Shown: in pieces, positions 18,110 through 26,081 of the stretch
How positions within the stretch are numbered: position 1 is the stretch's first letter
How the letters are laid out: each line of letters starts with the position of its first letter
DNA from: Chloroflexota bacterium
GTDB lineage: Bacteria; Chloroflexota; Dormibacteria; Dormibacterales; Dormibacteraceae
Length of the DNA stretch: 64,000 bases
Direction of reading: 5' to 3'
NCBI GenBank assembly: GCA_005883575.1
Contig: VBFH01000025.1
Coordinates: 62,001-126,000, forward strand
Translations under genes and position numbers: made by a program
Notes under the pieces: model-generated
Seen by the model: only the letters and a program-made list of their open reading frames with translations
Databases searched by the model: none
Told to the model about the DNA's origin: nothing

Positions 18110-18868
18110 CTAAGCCTTCGCCTCGACGCGGTCGCCGATGGCGATCCTGCCGCTGGTCAGCAATTCAGCGCGTAGACCGGCCCGGTGCACGAGCGGCTCG
18201 ACGATCGGCTTTCCGATCAGGCTCGCAAGGTAGGTGCACGGCTCACACAGCTTGGTCCCGCGCGCCAGAACATCGCCGATCCAGAACTCCTTGCCCACGA
18301 GGTCGTTGAGCCGGACGCCGCGCGTCGTGATGTTGCGGCGCGTCTCCCCCGGCGCCAGTCGGATGCCGAAGTCGCGGGCCAGGTTCTCGATGTTCTCGGC
18401 CTCGATGAGCGTCACGTCTCGACTGGAGCGGTCGTCGCGCCAGGTGCCTTCGCGCCTCGCGTTGCGATCGCCCGCGAGGCCAACTCCGGCGACCGCCTCT
18501 ATCGATGGGACGGCCTGCACGAGCGCGCCGGCGAGCTCCGCGATGTGGATGTGCTCGACGGTGCCCGTCAGCTTCATCGTTTTGAACTGTTGATCGTAGT
18601 CGGGGAAGTAGCGGGGAATCACAGAGAGGTCGAACCGGGGCAGGATGGAGCTCGGCGGCTCGCGCTCGAGCAGGAAGCCAAAGCTTTGCCGGACAAGGTC
18701 TTCGACGTCGGCGACCTCTGCGCCTCGGCCCCACCGTTCGAGGTCGGCCTTCGTGACCCAGACCGCATGCCACGTGCGCTCGCCGGTGTGCTCAACCTGG
18801 ACGTCGCAACTCCAGGCATCACCATCCTGGCGGCATCCCACCTCGACCACCGAGCGAAGCTTAGCCAT
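18110..18868 (-). CDS. MOSC-domain protein with an N-terminal extra domain
   Basis: The start is ATG 18868 (MAKLRSVVEVG), giving 252 residues; the frame is open far upstream but runs over the LuxR gene. Residues from about 97 (MKLTGTVEHIHIAEL) to the end are a MOSC domain: VAGVGLAGDRN, DVTLIEAENIENLARDFGI, APGETRRNITTRGVRLNDLVGKEFWIGDVL and GTKLCEPCTYLA with the conserved cysteine used for sulfur transfer in molybdenum-cofactor sulfurase-type enzymes. Residues 1-95 form a separate small domain with two Cys (VGCRQDGDAWSC). It may be an in-frame fusion of two usually separate genes. Confidence 0.75.
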   Translation of the reverse strand: MAKLRSVVEVGCRQDGDAWSCDVQVEHTGERTWHAVWVTKADLERWGRGAEVADVEDLVRQSFGFLLEREPPSSILPRFDLSVIPRYFPDYDQQFKTMKLTGTVEHIHIAELAGALVQAVPSIEAVAGVGLAGDRNARREGTWRDDRSSRDVTLIEAENIENLARDFGIRLAPGETRRNITTRGVRLNDLVGKEFWIGDVLARGTKLCEPCTYLASLIGKPIVEPLVHRAGLRAELLTSGRIAIGDRVEAKA

Positions 18869-18893
18869 GACCTGAGCCACACTCCTGTGCGAC

Positions 18894-18928
18894 TTAATTA
18901 ACAGACTATCCACCCTTGTGCTGATAAT
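18894..18928 (+). promoter_or_regulatory. Promoter-like element upstream of the LuxR-type regulator
   Basis: The block ttaattaacagactatccac (18894-18913) precedes a good -10-like GATAAT (18923-18928), with TTAACA (18898-18903) as a possible -35 at 19 bases. The TTG start follows at 18941. A closely similar block occurs at 20622, upstream of the signalling operon, so the two transcripts may share a sigma factor or regulator. Confidence 0.5.
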
Positions 18929-18940
18929 TCGTATGTACCC

Positions 18941-20617
18941 TTGGCCGGCCTGAGCTGGAACGATCTCCCAGGCGCCTTTCTCATCTACGATGCCGATGGT
19001 CTGGTGACCGAAGCGAACCAGGCCGCGAGCGAGCTGCTCGGGATGACCAACCAGGAGCTTGTCGGCTCGGCGGCGGAAGATGCGGGTTGGCTCGTCACCG
19101 ATGCGGCGGAGGGGCCGATCAGCGTCCACCCGGTGATCGCCGCCCTGCGCGGCCGGCAGCGGGCGCGGGGTGTGCTCGCGAGGGCGCGAAGACCCGACGG
19201 CGTCGATGTCTGGGTCCAGGTCGACGCCGCTCCGGAGCTGGGCGGTGACGGCGAGGTGACCCGCGTCGTCGCCGGCATCACCGACGTCACCCACCTGATC
19301 TCGCGGAGCCGTCTGAGCGGCCGCAGCGCCGGGGACCACATCGTCGACGAGGTCACCGACCGCCTCGCCGGCGTCCGCCTCGACCCCGGGGCCATCCTGA
19401 CGACGGTCACCAAGTCACTGAGCAGGCTCCGACCGGGGATCTGGGTGGCCTCGGTGATGAGCAAGGACCCGGACACGATGCGCGTCATCGCCACTGACGA
19501 CACCGACGCGGCGGCGACCGCTTACGTCGAGGCAATGCAGCTGTCGGGCATGGTGAGGACGACGCCGATCTCATCCCGTGTCATCGAATCGGGCGAGCCG
19601 CTGCTCCTCCCCACCGTCTCGCTCGACGATCTCCAGGGCATGCTGAACGAGGAGATCCGCCGCTACCTCGATCTCCATCCGTTCGCCGGGGGGGCGACCC
19701 AGCTCGCCGTGCTCGTCGTGCCGATGCGCTCACGTGGCGCGACGATTGGCACACTGGGTCTCTTCGAGCGGCGCGGCTCTAACCCCCTGACTGAGAAGGA
19801 TGTGATCTGGGTGCAGGAGATCGCGGACAGGACCGGCCTCGCCGTCGAGAACGCACAGCTCTACGAGGACGCCGTCCAGCGGCTCGATCGCCTGACCGCC
19901 TTGCAGAGCGTCAGCCTCGCGGTCAGCGCCAGCCCCGACCTGCGTCTGACGCTCAAGGTCATCCTCGACCACATCACCGCGCAGCTGAAGGTGGATGCCG
20001 CGGACGTACTGTTGCTCGACGAGACGGACAACACGCTTGCGCTCTCGGCGAGCACGGGCTTTCTGTCCACGGCCGTGCCCGACTACCGCCTGCCCGTCGA
20101 CGAGGGAGTGCCAGGGCGTGCGGTCATGAGCCGGCGCATCGAAACGGTCACCGCCCTCAGCGCCTTCTCGCAGTTCCGCCGCCGGTCACTTTTCGCGCGC
20201 GAAGGGTTCAAAGCCTACGGCGCGGTCCCGCTCATCAGCCGAGGCAAGCTGCTGGGCGCGCTCGAGGTCTTCCATCGCGCGGCCCTGACCCCGGACCAGG
20301 AGTGGATGGCGTTTCTCGACGCGCTCGGCAGCGTCGCGGCGGTGGCCATCGACAGCGCGACCATGCAGGAACGGCTTCGCCAGCGCCGGTACCTGCCCGA
20401 GGTCCGCAGGGCGGCGCGGGCCGCGCCCCCATTGAGCGCCACCGAAACCGAGATCCTGCGCATGGCCGTCGAGGGGATGACCAACCGCGAGATCGCCGTC
20501 AAGGTGCACCTGAGCCAGAACACGGTCAAGTTCCACATGCGCCAGATCCTGCAGAAAACGGGCGCCTCCAACCGCACCGAGCTCGCTCACCAGGCCGCCA
20601 AAGAGGGCTGGCTGTGA
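18941..20617 (+). CDS. PAS-GAF-GAF-LuxR transcriptional regulator
   Basis: The 558-residue protein starts with a PAS domain (residues 5-125: AFLIYDADGLVTEANQAASE LLGM ... VVAGITDVTHLI). Two GAF-like domains follow (about 150-310 and 325-475; LAVLVVPMRSRGATIGTLGL and YGAVPLISRGKLLGALEVFH are their last strands). It ends in a LuxR/NarL winged helix (496-558: LSATETEILRMAVEGMTNRE, then IAVKVHLSQNTVKFHMRQIL). No receiver domain is present, so it should sense a small molecule or redox state directly. The TTG start is 13 bases after the promoter-like GATAAT. It lies just upstream of the kinase operon on the same strand. Confidence 0.85.
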   Translation: MAGLSWNDLPGAFLIYDADGLVTEANQAASELLGMTNQELVGSAAEDAGWLVTDAAEGPISVHPVIAALRGRQRARGVLARARRPDGVDVWVQVDAAPELGGDGEVTRVVAGITDVTHLISRSRLSGRSAGDHIVDEVTDRLAGVRLDPGAILTTVTKSLSRLRPGIWVASVMSKDPDTMRVIATDDTDAAATAYVEAMQLSGMVRTTPISSRVIESGEPLLLPTVSLDDLQGMLNEEIRRYLDLHPFAGGATQLAVLVVPMRSRGATIGTLGLFERRGSNPLTEKDVIWVQEIADRTGLAVENAQLYEDAVQRLDRLTALQSVSLAVSASPDLRLTLKVILDHITAQLKVDAADVLLLDETDNTLALSASTGFLSTAVPDYRLPVDEGVPGRAVMSRRIETVTALSAFSQFRRRSLFAREGFKAYGAVPLISRGKLLGALEVFHRAALTPDQEWMAFLDALGSVAAVAIDSATMQERLRQRRYLPEVRRAARAAPPLSATETEILRMAVEGMTNREIAVKVHLSQNTVKFHMRQILQKTGASNRTELAHQAAKEGWL

Positions 20618-20621
20618 CCGT

Positions 20622-20657
20622 TTGATTAACAGAACTACCCACCTGGGTAGCGAATTA
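20622..20657 (+). promoter_or_regulatory. Second copy of the promoter-like element, with a palindrome
   Basis: ttgattaacagaactaccca (20622-20641) repeats the block at 18894 with few changes (shared core ATTAACAGA and CTAYCCACC). Here it runs into a perfect inverted repeat CTACCCA-CC-TGGGTAG (20635-20650), followed by GAATTA (20652-20657) in the -10 position. The position and symmetry suggest the promoter and operator of the five-gene signalling operon. The LuxR-type protein next door is the obvious candidate ligand, by inference. Confidence 0.5.
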
Positions 20658-20725
20658 GTCCTACGGGGAGTGAGCCGCCAGGCCATTACTTCTTAATCTC
20701 CAGGCAAAGGAAGCCTGGCTCTTAC

Positions 20726-20872
20726 ATGGCCTTCGTGGCGGCGCGGGCGGGGATCGATGACCTTGATGGTCGGCGCCTCTGTCTGGCCGCGGCCCTGCTG
20801 GTCGCGACCCTGGGCTTCCTGTTGACCCCACCCCTGGCGGGCATCCTGGTCTTGCTCGGCGTCGTGTCATGA
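20726..20872 (+). CDS. Single-helix membrane peptide leading the signalling operon (48 aa)
   Basis: This small gene has one strong membrane segment (LCLAAALLVATLGFLLTPPL followed by AGILVLLGVV) after a soluble start (MAFVAARAGIDDLDGRR). Its stop overlaps the kinase start (ATGA, 20869-20872), so it is translationally coupled. A purine-rich AAAGGAAG lies 14 bases upstream. No family is recognised. It may tether or regulate the kinase-receiver-HD-GYP protein, which has no membrane helix of its own. Confidence 0.6.
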   Translation: MAFVAARAGIDDLDGRRLCLAAALLVATLGFLLTPPLAGILVLLGVVS

Positions 20873-22710
20873 AAGTCCAGGAGGGGGCGACCGTCGGCGC
20901 CTACAAGATCATCGAGCGGATCGGGCGAGGCGGCATGGCCACCGTGTACCGGGCGTACCACCCCGCCCTGGACCGCTTCGTCGCCATCAAGGCTCTGCCC
21001 GATTTCTTCGCCGACGACCCGCTGTACCGCGAGCGGTTCCAGCAGGAGGCCCGCTCGGTGGCACACCTCAAGCACCCCAACATCCTGGAGATCTTCGACT
21101 TCGGGTACGAGGACGGCCTCGCCTACCTCGTCCTCGAGCTGGTCGATGGCGGGACCCTAGCGGACAGGCTCGGGCAGCCGTTGGATCTTCGCGAAGCGGT
21201 ACGCCTGCTGAGCCAGGTGGCCGGCGCGCTCGACCACGCCCATCAGCACGGCATCCTCCACCGCGACATCAAGCCATCCAACATCCTCATCCACACTGAT
21301 GGGACGGCGGTCCTCGCCGACTTCGGCCTGGCGAAGATGGCCGGCTCGCTGCGCAGGCTAACCAGCTCTGGCACGGTGATGGGGACGCCCGAGTACATGT
21401 CGCCGGAACAGGCGGCCGACGAGCCGATCGGACCCGCCTCCGACCTGTACTCATTCGCAGTGGTTGCCTACGAGATGCTGACCGGCCGCGTGCCTTTTCA
21501 CGCCGAGACGCCCGCCGCCATCTTGCTGTCTCACGTCACCAAGGCGATGCCGGCAACACATGAGCTGCGAGGCGAGCTGTCCGCGCACGTCGAAGATGTT
21601 CTGCGGCGCGGCCTTGCGAAAAGTCCCGAGGACCGCTTCTCGTCAGCGGCCGCATTCGTAGCGGCTCTGAAGCCGGCGGCGTGGCCCGGACGCCACAGCG
21701 ACAACGCCAACATGACTCCGGCGACACGGCGCCTTGCGCGCCCTTACCGCACCCCGGCCGTGCTCGTCGTTGATGACGGCGAAGCAAACCGCGAGCTCAT
21801 CGAGGCTTGCCTGGCGGGCGTCGACTGCCATGTCCGTTCGGCGGTCGATGGGGTGAGCGCGCTCAAAGCGGTCGAGGCGTCACCCCCAGACCTCGTCCTG
21901 CTCGACGTCCAGATGCCGGGCATGGACGGATACGAGGTCTGCCGTCGGATCAAGTCGAATCCCGCGTCCAGGCTGATCCCGGTCGTGATGATCACATCGC
22001 TCGACGACACCGACGATCGCGTCCGCGCTCTGGAGGCCGGCGCGGACGACTACATGACCAAACCGGTCGACCGTGTGGAGCTCGTCGCGCGCGTGGCCTC
22101 CGCGCTGCGGCTCAAGAGTCTGTACGACTCGCTGGACAGCGCCGAGCAGGTCATCTTCGCGCTCGCGTCGGCGGTCGAGGCCAAAGATCCGTTCACCGAA
22201 GCCCATACCCAGCGTGTCGCCGAGTCGGCGAGGATGATCGGTGTCCGCCTGGGCCTCGGCCCGTCGCACCTGGACGCGCTCTACCGCGGCGGCCTCATCC
22301 ACGACATCGGCAAGATCGGAATTCCGGACGCCATCCTCCTCAAGCCCGGGCCGCTCGACGCCGACGAACAGATCACGATGCACCTGCATCCGATCATCGG
22401 CGAGAACATCGTCGCGCCCCTTCGTTCCGGGGCGCGCTTGCTGCCCATCATCCGCAACCACCACGAGCATTTCGACGGGACCGGATATCCCGATCGCCTC
22501 TCTGGCGCGGGCATTCCTCAGCTGGCGCGCATCGTTGCGGTCTGCGACGCGTTCGATGCGCTGGTCAACGATCGCCCCTACCGCGCGCGCAAGACGGTCG
22601 AGGAAGCGCTCGCGATCCTTCGCGACGGCGCCGGCCGGCAGTGGGATCCCCAGGTCGTGGAAGTATTCGTCGCCGACGTGCCCGCGTTCGCCTCCCTTGG
22701 GGCGGCCTGA
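20869..22710 (+). CDS. Ser/Thr protein kinase-receiver-HD-GYP fusion
   Basis: Three complete signalling modules lie in one 613-residue soluble protein. Residues 10-268 are a Hanks-type kinase: GRGGMATVY loop, Lys41, HRDIKPSN (131-138), DFG (151-153), MGTPEYMSPEQ. Residues 296-410 are a response-regulator receiver with VVDDGE, Asp346 in LLDVQMPGMDG and Lys398. Residues 425-605 are an HD-GYP domain: EAHTQRV, GLIHDIGKIGIPD, HPIIGENI, RNHHEHFDGTGYP, the pattern of c-di-GMP phosphodiesterases. All key catalytic residues are present. One protein would thus join Ser/Thr phosphorylation, phosphorelay and second-messenger breakdown. It is coupled to the membrane peptide and one base from the histidine kinase gene. 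Confidence 0.92.
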   Translation: MKVQEGATVGAYKIIERIGRGGMATVYRAYHPALDRFVAIKALPDFFADDPLYRERFQQEARSVAHLKHPNILEIFDFGYEDGLAYLVLELVDGGTLADRLGQPLDLREAVRLLSQVAGALDHAHQHGILHRDIKPSNILIHTDGTAVLADFGLAKMAGSLRRLTSSGTVMGTPEYMSPEQAADEPIGPASDLYSFAVVAYEMLTGRVPFHAETPAAILLSHVTKAMPATHELRGELSAHVEDVLRRGLAKSPEDRFSSAAAFVAALKPAAWPGRHSDNANMTPATRRLARPYRTPAVLVVDDGEANRELIEACLAGVDCHVRSAVDGVSALKAVEASPPDLVLLDVQMPGMDGYEVCRRIKSNPASRLIPVVMITSLDDTDDRVRALEAGADDYMTKPVDRVELVARVASALRLKSLYDSLDSAEQVIFALASAVEAKDPFTEAHTQRVAESARMIGVRLGLGPSHLDALYRGGLIHDIGKIGIPDAILLKPGPLDADEQITMHLHPIIGENIVAPLRSGARLLPIIRNHHEHFDGTGYPDRLSGAGIPQLARIVAVCDAFDALVNDRPYRARKTVEEALAILRDGAGRQWDPQVVEVFVADVPAFASLGAA

Positions 22711-22711
22711 G

Positions 22712-25318
22712 GTGAGCAGCGTGAGCCAGTTTGTCGCCTTCTTGCAAGACGCGGTCGCGGTCGCCTTCGTGATCCTCGGAGTCGCGACGGCCGCTCACTG
22801 GCTCAGGCGTCGCGATCGCTCCATGGGCTATCTGGCTCTGGCAATCGTCCTGCTTGCCGCGGTCGCGGGCCTCGGCCGCCTCCAAGCGCATCTGCCCTTC
22901 ATGATTCCGCTGCTGAGCGACATCAACCTGCTGGCCTTCGCCGGCTGCGGATACGCGCTTCTCCGCTATCGAGACACCCTGATCCCCCTCCCTCGGCGCT
23001 GGCACGCCGTCGCGATCGCTTCGTTGGCGATAGCCAGCGTCTTACTCGTCGCCGCCGGAGCGATCGGCGCGCCGAGGCCGTGGCTCATCTCCATCGCCCT
23101 CGCATGGTTCGCCGTCTGGGGACTCTGCGTCGTCGAGCCCATCGTCCGGTTCTGGCTGGTGGCACGACAGCTGCCCTCCGTGCAGGCGTGGCGCTTGCGC
23201 TCGCTCAGCCTGGGGTTCGGCGGGCTGCTGGCCCTCCTGCTGTTCGCAATCTCGGTCGGCTCGTTCGTGCGCCAGCCGGCCACGCAGGTCGTGATCGAGC
23301 TTGTCGCTCTCGCCATCGTCCCGCTTCTGTACGCCAGCTTCGCCCCACCCTCGTGGCTGCGCCGGCAGTGGCGCGCCGAGGAAGAAGAGAGCCTGCGCGC
23401 GTTCATGGAGCAGCTCCTGCTCAGCGATGACCGTGACGTCCTCGCCAGGCGGGCGCTCGAGCTCGGGACGCGTCTGGTCGGCGGCGCCGCCGGCGCCCTC
23501 TACGACGCATCGGGAGCTGTCACGACCAGCCTTGGCATGGAGCAGGCGCAGGTCGTCGAGCTCGGCAGCCGACTCGGAAACATGGCGCGGGGCGTGAGCC
23601 GGGTGGTGGTCGCGGGACTCGAGCGAACGGCGCTGGCCGTGCCGGTTTCGGGCCTCTCCTCGAGGACTGTCGTCGTGCTCGCCGGCCCATTCACGCCGGG
23701 CTTTGGCGAGGACGAGGTGAATCGCATGCAGCAGCTCATGAGCGCTTTCGTGACTGCGCTCGACCGCCGCCACCTGATCGTGGAGCTGGAGCAAGCCAAC
23801 GCGGCGCTCAAGGAGGCGAACCGTCACAAGAGCGTCTTTCTCGCCAATATGAGCCACGAGCTGCGCACGCCGCTGAACGCGATCATCGGATTCTCCGAGC
23901 TCCTGACCGATGCGCGCGACGGCCAGTTCGACGACGCGACGCAAAAGCGATTCATCGGACAGATCCTCACCAGCGGCAAGCACCTGCTCGGCCTGATCAA
24001 CGACATCCTGGACCTCTCCAAGGTCGAAGCCGGCCAGATGGAGCTGCGGCTGCAGACGGTTTCCGTGGCCGAGGCGGTGGACCAGGTCATCAAGACAGTC
24101 GAGCCTCTCGTCGCCAAGAAGAACATCACGCTGCGGTCGAATCCACACAGCGTCGAACAGGTGCTGGCGGACGCCGGCAAGCTCAAGCAGATGCTGCTGA
24201 ACCTCGTCTCGAACGCCATCAAGTTCACGCCCGAAGGCGGAACCGTGACGATCGACGTACGGCGGGGCAGAGACACCGTCCAGTTCGCGGTTGCAGACAC
24301 CGGGATCGGGATCGCCCCCGCGGACCAGAAGCAGATCTTCCAGGAATTCCATCAGATCGACCACGGCCCCGGTCGCAAGCACGAGGGGACTGGCTTGGGC
24401 CTGGCGCTGACCAGGCGATTCGCGCTGCTCCATGGCGGTGATGTCGACGTGACGAGCCGGGTCAACAAGGGCAGCGTCTTCACCTTGACCCTCCCGCTCC
24501 GCGGCGCGGGGACTCCCCGGGTCGAGCACGCCTCCCCCGCGGCGAAGAACGGAGATGGTACGGGCCCGCTCGTGCTCGTGGTCGAGGACGATCCCGCCGC
24601 GGCGGAGCTCCTCACGCGCCAGCTGGTGGACGCGGGTTATCGCACCGAGCTCGCGCGCACCGGCACCGAAGCGCTGGCCAAAGCCAGGCAGCTGCAGCCC
24701 GCGGCGATCACGCTCGACATCATCCTGCCCGAGGTCGACGGGTGGGAGGTCATCACCCAGCTGAAGAGCGATCAGTCCACGAGCGGCATCCCGATCGTGG
24801 TCGTCAGCGTGGTCGACAACCCGGAGCTTGGCATCTCGCTCGGCGCCATCGACTACTTCGTCAAACCGGTCGACGGAAGAGAGCTGGTGAAGCGCTTGAG
24901 CGGGTTCCACCTGGAGCGCACTCCGGGCAAGGACGAGATTCGCGTGCTGGTCGTGGACGACGAGCCGGCGAACCGCACCTGGCTCGCCAAGACGCTGGAG
25001 CCCGCCGGCTTCACCGTGGTGCCGGCTTCAGGTGGCCGCGAAGCGATCCAGCTGGCCCGGTCGATCAAACCTGACTTCGTCGTGCTCGATCTGATGATGC
25101 CGGAGGTCACCGGATTCGACGTTGTCGAGGCCCTTCGGGCGGACGAATCCACCAGGGATGTGCCGATCATGGTCCTCACCGCGACGAACCTGACCGAGGC
25201 CGACAAGCGCCTGCTCAACGGACGGGTGTCCCAGATCCTGAGCCGCGGCTCATTGCCGAACTCAGACATCGTCGGCATGCTCAAGCGTGTGGTCGCCCAT
25301 CGGAACGGTGCTGCGTGA
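22712..25318 (+). CDS. Membrane hybrid histidine kinase with two C-terminal receivers
   Basis: Translated from GTG 22712 (868 aa), one base after the preceding stop. Residues 5-215 hold about seven membrane helices (sensor). Residues 225-345 are a diverged GAF-like domain, and a short coiled coil (VELEQANAALKEANRHK) follows. HisKA has His382 in NMSHELRTPLNAIIGFSEL; the HATPase has LLNLVSNAIKFTPEGG, DTGIGIA and GTGLGLAL. Receiver 1 (620-730) has Asp669 and KP at 718-719. Receiver 2 (743-860) has Asp793 but no clear conserved Lys (ILSRGS). The two receivers and the downstream lone receivers suggest a multistep relay that feeds the kinase-receiver-HD-GYP protein. Confidence 0.9.
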   Translation: MSSVSQFVAFLQDAVAVAFVILGVATAAHWLRRRDRSMGYLALAIVLLAAVAGLGRLQAHLPFMIPLLSDINLLAFAGCGYALLRYRDTLIPLPRRWHAVAIASLAIASVLLVAAGAIGAPRPWLISIALAWFAVWGLCVVEPIVRFWLVARQLPSVQAWRLRSLSLGFGGLLALLLFAISVGSFVRQPATQVVIELVALAIVPLLYASFAPPSWLRRQWRAEEEESLRAFMEQLLLSDDRDVLARRALELGTRLVGGAAGALYDASGAVTTSLGMEQAQVVELGSRLGNMARGVSRVVVAGLERTALAVPVSGLSSRTVVVLAGPFTPGFGEDEVNRMQQLMSAFVTALDRRHLIVELEQANAALKEANRHKSVFLANMSHELRTPLNAIIGFSELLTDARDGQFDDATQKRFIGQILTSGKHLLGLINDILDLSKVEAGQMELRLQTVSVAEAVDQVIKTVEPLVAKKNITLRSNPHSVEQVLADAGKLKQMLLNLVSNAIKFTPEGGTVTIDVRRGRDTVQFAVADTGIGIAPADQKQIFQEFHQIDHGPGRKHEGTGLGLALTRRFALLHGGDVDVTSRVNKGSVFTLTLPLRGAGTPRVEHASPAAKNGDGTGPLVLVVEDDPAAAELLTRQLVDAGYRTELARTGTEALAKARQLQPAAITLDIILPEVDGWEVITQLKSDQSTSGIPIVVVSVVDNPELGISLGAIDYFVKPVDGRELVKRLSGFHLERTPGKDEIRVLVVDDEPANRTWLAKTLEPAGFTVVPASGGREAIQLARSIKPDFVVLDLMMPEVTGFDVVEALRADESTRDVPIMVLTATNLTEADKRLLNGRVSQILSRGSLPNSDIVGMLKRVVAHRNGAA

Positions 25319-25716
25319 CCGGGCGAAACCTGATCCTGGTCGTCGAAGACAACGAGGCCAACCAGATGCTCACGCGTGCGGTGCTCGAGCTCGAAGGCTA
25401 CTCCGTCGCGGTCGCCGGCTCGGCACCTGAGGCGCTGGACCGGCTGCGCGACGCGACGCCGGACCTGATCTTGATGGACATCCAGCTCCCCGGCGAGGAT
25501 GGGCTTTCGCTGGCCCGCCGCCTGAAGGCGAATCCAGCGAGCTCCATGATCCCGGTCGTCGCGCTGACCGCGCACGCGATGACCGGCGACCGCGAGGAGG
25601 CGCTGCATGCGGGTTGCGTCGGCTACATCTCCAAGCCGATCGATACGCGCACGTTTGGCGCCGCGGTAGGCCGGTTTCTGCAGATGAACGGCGACGAGCG
25701 CCTGGTGGCTGGATGA
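25315..25716 (+). CDS. Stand-alone response-regulator receiver (133 aa)
   Basis: A CheY-like receiver with VVEDNEANQ, the phospho-acceptor Asp in LILMDIQLPGEDG, ALTAHAM and ISKPID. It has no output domain, like the last component of hybrid kinases (DivK type). The GTG start overlaps the histidine kinase stop by 4 bases (GTGA) and its own stop overlaps the next start (ATGA), so it is produced together with both. It probably shuttles phosphoryl groups in this relay. Confidence 0.9.
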   Translation: MTGRNLILVVEDNEANQMLTRAVLELEGYSVAVAGSAPEALDRLRDATPDLILMDIQLPGEDGLSLARRLKANPASSMIPVVALTAHAMTGDREEALHAGCVGYISKPIDTRTFGAAVGRFLQMNGDERLVAG

Positions 25717-26081
25717 ACGGCCGCATCCTGGTCGCGGACGACGATCCCGCCAGCGCGGAGCTTCTCACGTACTGCCTGGAGGCAGACGGCTTCACCGTCG
25801 TCACCGCTCCGGACGGAAATCAAGCCCTCGAGATGGGCACGACCGGAGACTTTCAGCTGGTCATCCTCGACGTGCACATGCCGATGTACGACGGCGTCGA
25901 GGTGCTGGAGATGTTGCGCAAGCGGCACGTTCTCCATCCGATCAAGGTCATCGCGCTCACAGGCGATCTGTCCGAAAAGGTGCGGCATGCGCTCGAAGGT
26001 GGACGCATCGATTCCTTCCTGACCAAGCCCGTCGACCTCGTAGTGCTGCGCGAAGAGGTCCGGCGCCTGACAGCGGCATAG
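25713..26081 (+). CDS. Stand-alone response-regulator receiver (122 aa)
   Basis: The start is ATG 25713, overlapping the stop of the previous receiver (ATGA). It carries VADDDPASAE, the acceptor Asp in VILDVHMPMYDG, ALTGDLS and LTKPVD, so it is a complete receiver without an output domain. It is the last gene of the coupled series 20726-26081. Two adjacent lone receivers with different alpha4-beta5 surfaces suggest two branches of the relay. It converges on the sugar isomerase gene. Confidence 0.9.
   Translation: MNGRILVADDDPASAELLTYCLEADGFTVVTAPDGNQALEMGTTGDFQLVILDVHMPMYDGVEVLEMLRKRHVLHPIKVIALTGDLSEKVRHALEGGRIDSFLTKPVDLVVLREEVRRLTAA

Follow-up and report, generated by a model that had tools for sequence, protein, structure and literature searches.

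The described systems closest to the one analyzed here are NarL/NarP of Escherichia coli, which use TACYYMT heptamers in 7-2-7 sites, and the PimM-type PAS-LuxR regulators of Streptomyces. In the available excerpt of PMC9314961, a single NarL site at -66.5 or at -44.5 suffices for activation, and the known activator sites of FNR are placed at -41.5 and -61.5 in the excerpted text of PMC4886647. PimM-type regulators are described as activators in the accessible part of PMC6448028, and they bind CTVGGGAWWTCCCBAG, a palindrome-like sequence of 16 bp located in the -35 region (excerpt of PMC9774167).

Here we examine a luxR gene and the kinase operon behind it in a 64,000-nucleotide stretch of DNA (the window) from an uncultured lineage. 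No published study of this luxR-kinase system in Dormibacterota/Dormibacteraeota was found in open-access full texts. For a gene set that combines Ser/Thr kinase, two-component and HD-GYP components, we predict which sequence serves as operator, how the promoter is laid out and which protein regulates it; the dyad promoter would be of the NarL/PimM-like kind, which is already known. Comparing relatives also tells a true operator from a look-alike.

Two resembling sites in the window

A first-pass annotation had paired a site before luxR (site 1) with a site before the kinase operon (site 2), and re-reading the window DNA confirms its sequences and coordinates for both. The core ATTAACAGA occurs at 18897-18905 and 20625-20633, followed by a second block, CTATCCACC at 18906-18914 in site 1 and CTACCCACC at 20635-20643 in site 2: both elements are present as claimed, but the spacing is unequal, site 2 having one extra base between core and block. 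The palindrome at site 2, dyad CTACCCACCTGGGTAG at 20635-20650 (CTACCCA-CC-TGGGTAG), is indeed perfect, and in this exact form it has a single occurrence in the 3.6-Mb genome. Each composite pattern matches once in the 64-kb window, where 0.01 and 0.02 matches are expected, and the genome-wide motif search that had been proposed, run with the joint pattern ATTAACAGA-N(0-1)-CTAYCCA, returns 2 matches in all 3.6 Mb, which are the two sites themselves (reversed control: 0). Taken alone and with ≤1 mismatch, the parts are not unusual in the window: ATTAACAGA is found 2 times vs 1.7 expected, and CTAYCCACC 12 times vs 13.5 expected.

A -10-like hexamer had also been placed after each site. This stands for site 1, where GATAAT occupies 18923-18928 and TTAACA suits the -35 role, but in site 2 the hexamer at the same spacing, CGAATT, is a poor one, and TAATCT (Table 1) is the -10-like element with better conservation. 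Exact TTAACA-N19-GATAAT occurs in 9 of 17 genus genomes at 10 places: 9 precede the luxR ortholog, and the tenth lies close to the end of a G009 contig. A relaxed form is present in 10/16 orthologs. The shorter variant TTAACA-N17/18-GATAAT had given 0 matches in the window's own genome because the actual spacing is 19. Site 1 is the predicted promoter of luxR itself and has no dyad operator.

The luxR gene begins with TTG 12 nt past this -10 (18923-18941). An in-frame GTG or TTG follows a -10-like hexamer at 7-12 nt in 12 of the 16 orthologs, and therefore the luxR mRNA may be nearly leaderless. On the other side lies a divergent gene (18110-18868) that starts ~30 bp from the luxR promoter and carries a MOSC domain, which by Pfam spans only residues 160-260 of the scanned ORF.

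Table 1. Features of the luxR-kinase locus, in window positions
Feature	Position	Strand	Remarks
luxR promoter (site 1)	18898..18928	+	TTAACA 18898-18903, 19-bp spacer, GATAAT 18923-18928; predicted start ~18935
CTATCCACC block in site-1 spacer	18906..18914	+	single half-site
luxR gene	18941..20617	+	PAS-GAF-GAF-GerE (LuxR-type HTH) by Pfam; 15 genus orthologs; probable operator binder
TTGATTAACAGAA stretch before dyad (shared core at site 2)	20622..20634	+	TTAACA in 13/16 genus loci
Main operator (predicted), CTACCCA-CC-TGGGTAG	20635..20650	+	centre 20642.5, ~ -63.5 from predicted start; kept with ≤2 mismatches in 16/16 genus loci
Weak second operator copy	20656..20671 (limits approximate)	+	centre 20-21 bp past that of the main operator, about -43 to -42
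Probable -10 of kinase operon, TAATCT	20694..20699	+	predicted start ~20706
Small ORF	20726..20872	+	48 aa, one hydrophobic stretch; stop overlaps kinase start (ATGA)
Ser/Thr kinase-REC-HD-GYP protein	20869..22710	+	Pfam Pkinase, Response_reg, HD_5
Hybrid histidine kinase, two REC domains	22711..25318	+	Pfam HisKA, HATPase_c, Response_reg x2 in ORF 22241-25318; putative start
REC protein	25315..25716	+	Pfam Response_reg
Second REC protein	25713..26081	+	Pfam Response_reg; start inferred at MNGRILVADD in ORF 25614-26081

Conservation of the dyad and promoter geometry

Homologs of luxR (E ≤ 1e-40) occur in 24 of the 61 genomes searched, all in the same family; none of the 24 genomes that represent other families of the class has one. 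The comparison takes in the window and its 15 orthologs, together 16 genus loci, plus a further 18 homologs, with expected dyad counts taken from dinucleotide shuffles. Left out of the dyad counts are L031, where the homolog is cut by a contig end, and L081 and L082, which have no luxR hit; genome G015 has no full-length ortholog and contributes no row to the 16 genus loci. Where a homolog aligned only from GAF onward, its upstream region is the 250 bp before the first aligned residue, which may be partly intragenic.

The dyad lies directly after luxR, 17 nt downstream of its stop codon. Within 90 bp of that stop, TACCC-N4-GGGTA is exact in 14 of the 16 genus loci (0.003 expected) and present with ≤2 mismatches in all 16 (1.0 expected). 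Downstream of luxR in the 18 more distant homologs it is exact in 3 (0 expected) and present with ≤2 mismatches in 8 (0.56 expected), so that 10 have no dyad at this threshold. At L006 both arms are altered together (CTATCC/GGATAG). Upstream of luxR, at ≤2 mismatches, the dyad is found in 0/16 genus loci (0.65 expected) and in 1/17 other homologs (0.69 expected), the denominator being 17 since L080 has too short an upstream sequence. The 17 genus genomes together hold 14 exact CTACCCNNNNGGGTAG sites, namely 12 at the luxR ortholog, 1 after a luxR paralog in G010 and 1 in G015. With 1 mismatch the reversed control is the commoner, at 11-32 per genome vs 1-4 for the dyad.

Two of the dyads deserve separate mention. 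The G015 site (L087:2381-2396, on G015:C194) is the sole exact CTACCCNNNNGGGTAG of the genus genomes without an adjoining luxR of the family, and sits at the 5' end of an ORF that by eye resembles an XRE-type regulator. In L082:1423-1438 (G009:C352) a CTACCCGATCGGGTAC dyad stands ahead of a histidine kinase like that beside the L030 luxR paralog, and no luxR of the family was found within the 2.8 kb read there.

Conservation in the genus extends well beyond the palindrome. A block of ~78 bp around the dyad has a mean majority fraction of 0.80-0.88, against 0.51-0.58 in the flanks, and terminates at TANNCT. The distance of this element from the dyad centre is 51 bp at 14 of the 16 genus loci and 52 bp at L007; L006 has TAATGT at 51 bp. 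A second operator copy at +20/+21, with ≤4/10 mismatches and weak on its own, is seen in 11/16 genus loci and is not listed for L006, L012, L013, L019 and L020. Clearer second copies are found at +22 in L021, L022, L030 and L077. L021, L022 and L069, from another genus, carry further dyads at +22 and +43 (2-4/10 mismatches) and have TANNCT at 73-74, i.e., 51-52 from the second dyad, and the paralogs L030, L077 and L079 combine a second copy at +22 with GATAAC/CATAAC at 52, a [GC]ATAAC that was spotted by eye first and measured afterwards. For the 12 other loci aligned for geometry the anchors were placed by hand, guided by the dyad scan and by visual inspection: degenerate dyads underlie those of L025-L027 and L078, -10 or operator anchors are hand-set in L023 and L025-L027, and L023 offers other TA...T candidates.

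Around the dyad the genus also keeps TTAACA and AATT, which a promoter at that place would need. The site-2 TTAACA stands ~68 bp before the probable -10, and by eye GGRTTA is seen 22 bp from the dyad; the TTGATTAACAGAA stretch may be what is left of a third operator copy, 22 bp upstream.

If the first T of the -10 is at -12, the two operators would be centred near -63.5 and -42, a spacing that would fit an activator-dependent (class I/II) promoter, which has operators near -61 and/or -42 and a weak or absent -35, provided that TAATCT is the -10. By hand count, the consensus hexamers 16-18 bp before TAATCT match TTGACA at 2-3 of 6 positions, and a sigma-70 scan restricted to spacers of 16-18 reports no promoter within 18700-21000. 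By-eye readings of site 2 as sigma-B-like or ECF-like were dropped because the left dyad arm is conserved equally to the right. Inspection of the leader by eye for a conserved RNA stem found none.

From the site-2 promoter block we built a sequence-only model and scored 147-150 candidates per genome. It gives one strong match each in 16 of the 17 genus genomes, always at this promoter, and in G015 a weak match only (E 0.056). The weak matches (E 0.05-0.28) are G004:C34, G015:C162 and G009:C218.

LuxR as candidate activator, and the alternatives

Among the six proteins scanned with Pfam, LuxR alone has a DNA-binding domain: a C-terminal GerE HTH (PF00196, residues 497-551, 63.3 bits against a cut-off of 23.5), which identifies a LuxR/NarL-type (GerE) factor and matches 43 PDB sequences, NarL included. 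No REC domain of the kind that defines NarL/FixJ response regulators is found in it by Pfam, which reports PAS and GAF only, and the NCBIfam NarL model scores 30.1 bits where its cut-off is 250. Homologs of luxR adjoin the dyad at the paralogs too, with a histidine kinase downstream. Aligned to the NarL helix, the recognition helix SQNTVKFHMRQ has Lys/Arg at the positions of Lys188 and Lys192, the two NarL residues that contact guanines. Specificity in this family is said to be set by helix alpha9 and the preceding loop (accessible part of PMC3246441). Helix and dyad both differ in L023 (SQHT; CCGCCC-N4-GGGCGG) and in L025 (SQST; TTGACC-N4-GGTCAA), which is suggestive of co-change. A simple helix-operator rule is contradicted by L024, L029 and L080, which keep the SQNT recognition helix and lack the dyad, and by L028, which has a different helix (TENT) and a near-consensus dyad.

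The presumed target genes travel together. The luxR, kinase-REC-HD-GYP and hybrid kinase genes are adjacent in L035-L041 (7/7) and in L084, and the first REC gene comes next in L035-L040 and L084, the L041 sequence ending inside the hybrid kinase gene; no kinase gene was found downstream in L083. The small ORF has no NCBIfam match; the overlap of its stop with the kinase start is kept in 16/16 genus loci, suggesting a coupled membrane protein. The protein encoded next (20869-22710) joins a Ser/Thr kinase, a REC domain and an HD-GYP-type HD domain in one chain.

The best explanation overall, to which we assign a probability of about two in three, is that the dyad is an operator bound by LuxR for activation of the kinase operon. 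Dimers of the LuxR HTH would bind TACCC-N4-GGGTA (~ -63) as the main operator and, more weakly, the copy ~21 bp downstream (~ -42, over the -35 place), both on one helix face. Thus bound, and with a signal sensed by its PAS and GAF domains, LuxR would recruit RNA polymerase to a promoter with TAATCT as its -10 and no recognisable -35, switching on the genes for the small membrane protein, the Ser/Thr kinase-REC-HD-GYP protein, the hybrid histidine kinase and the two REC proteins. Site 2 is then probably a conserved docking site through which LuxR switches on the neighbouring signalling genes. The model builds on the dyad, its conservation, the TANNNT spacing, the tandem copies in other genera, the synteny and the single strong match per genome. 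Against it weigh the weakness of the second copy in this genus, the 10 distant homologs without the dyad, the SQNT helix kept by L024, L029 and L080 in its absence, the hand-set anchors, the conserved TTAACA and AATT, and the G009:C352 dyad. What we infer from sequence is binding by LuxR, activation as its mode of control, a single operon and the point where transcription starts.

Some of the same features could be read otherwise. LuxR might instead act as a repressor, since the dyad fills the 19-bp spacer of TTAACA-N19-CGAATT at site 2, the spacing of the luxR promoter, and would block polymerase there until the signal comes. The TTAACA of 13/16 genus loci and the AATT of most would fit this, but the hexamer at 19-bp spacing is poor, L006 and L008 keep the dyad after losing TTAACA, which is also not seen at the corresponding place in L021, L022 and L069, and the conserved stretch up to TANNCT would be left unexplained; on balance repression seems rather unlikely. 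We consider it quite improbable that another DNA-binding protein occupies the dyad. Adjacency is no proof of binding by the neighbouring LuxR, the G009:C352 dyad has no luxR of the family within the 2.8 kb read, and one exact G015 dyad lies elsewhere, yet a luxR of the family is the recurring neighbour at the 16 genus loci and at paralogs L030, L077 and L079, and the remaining five proteins scanned have no DNA-binding domain. That the dyad works as an RNA hairpin, e.g., a luxR terminator or leader element, is very unlikely: its place just past the luxR stop codon, a possible 6-bp stem and the paired change in L006 are consistent with a hairpin, but no T run follows, the terminator scan lists nothing there, Rfam yields no family and three chance matches only, and the 22-bp tandem copies and fixed TANNNT distance in other genera suit protein binding.

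The first-pass annotation had gone further, suggesting one regulator for both sites and possible autoregulation by LuxR. Its palindrome before the kinase operon is a likely operator and LuxR the best candidate binder, but shared control finds no support in the comparison, because none of the other 15 orthologs has the CTATCCA block: exact CTAYCCA occurs upstream of luxR in none of them, with 1-mismatch forms in L017, L019 and L020. The missing upstream dyads speak against shared control as well, and the site-2 promoter model, run on its own genome, does not report site 1 at E ≤ 1. In the window species alone, LuxR could still control itself by binding the CTATCCA half-site in the luxR promoter, which would be compatible with activation of the kinase operon and which we find very doubtful. 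The spacer matches CTACCCACC at 8/9 positions, with a probability of ~0.001 per random 19-bp spacer (the others match at 3 to 5, with 9 of 16 spacers compared), and a half-site between -35 and -10 is well placed for repression; against this, the right half-site is missing and the offset differs by 1 base from site 2. The CTATCCACC block is probably coincidental, and the annotation probably paired a real operator with a promoter merely resembling one, the likeness being mostly coincidence.

Activation by LuxR may also be part of a broader pattern, which we put forward tentatively as possible: the PAS-GAF-GAF LuxR of each genus genome would be a dedicated switch with the neighbouring kinase operon as its single strong target, helix and operator having co-changed with the geometry fixed (≤3 operators at ~22-bp intervals, with the -10 a further 51-52 bp away). 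If true, the family offers a set of natural variants from which the DNA code of LuxR-type HTH domains could be read.

Comparison with PimM-type regulators and NarL/NarP

The comparison with PimM-type regulators covers domain layout and operator. They share PAS and a LuxR HTH with the regulator studied here, and their 16-bp site, as given in the excerpt of PMC9774167, is in the same frame as CTACCCANNTGGGTAG. However, the triplet is reversed here (CCCA..TGGG), so that CTACCCANNTGGGTAG misses the consensus CTVGGGAWWTCCCBAG quoted in that excerpt, and two GAF stretches separate the PAS from the HTH, where a PimM-type protein has one PAS and the HTH only. The target also differs, being a signalling operon here and antibiotic genes there.

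NarL/NarP differ in that the regulator here has PAS-GAF-GAF in place of REC, and the half-sites are 2 bp closer than in a 7-2-7 site when TACCCAT is counted as the heptamer. The likeness lies in the LuxR-type HTH, with Lys/Arg matching Lys188/Lys192, and in the half-site TACCCA, which fits the TACYYM of the consensus in the excerpt of PMC4886647. The predicted geometry is similar as well: the NarL sites at -66.5 and -44.5, as the excerpt of PMC9314961 has them, are close to the -63.5 and ~ -42 proposed here.
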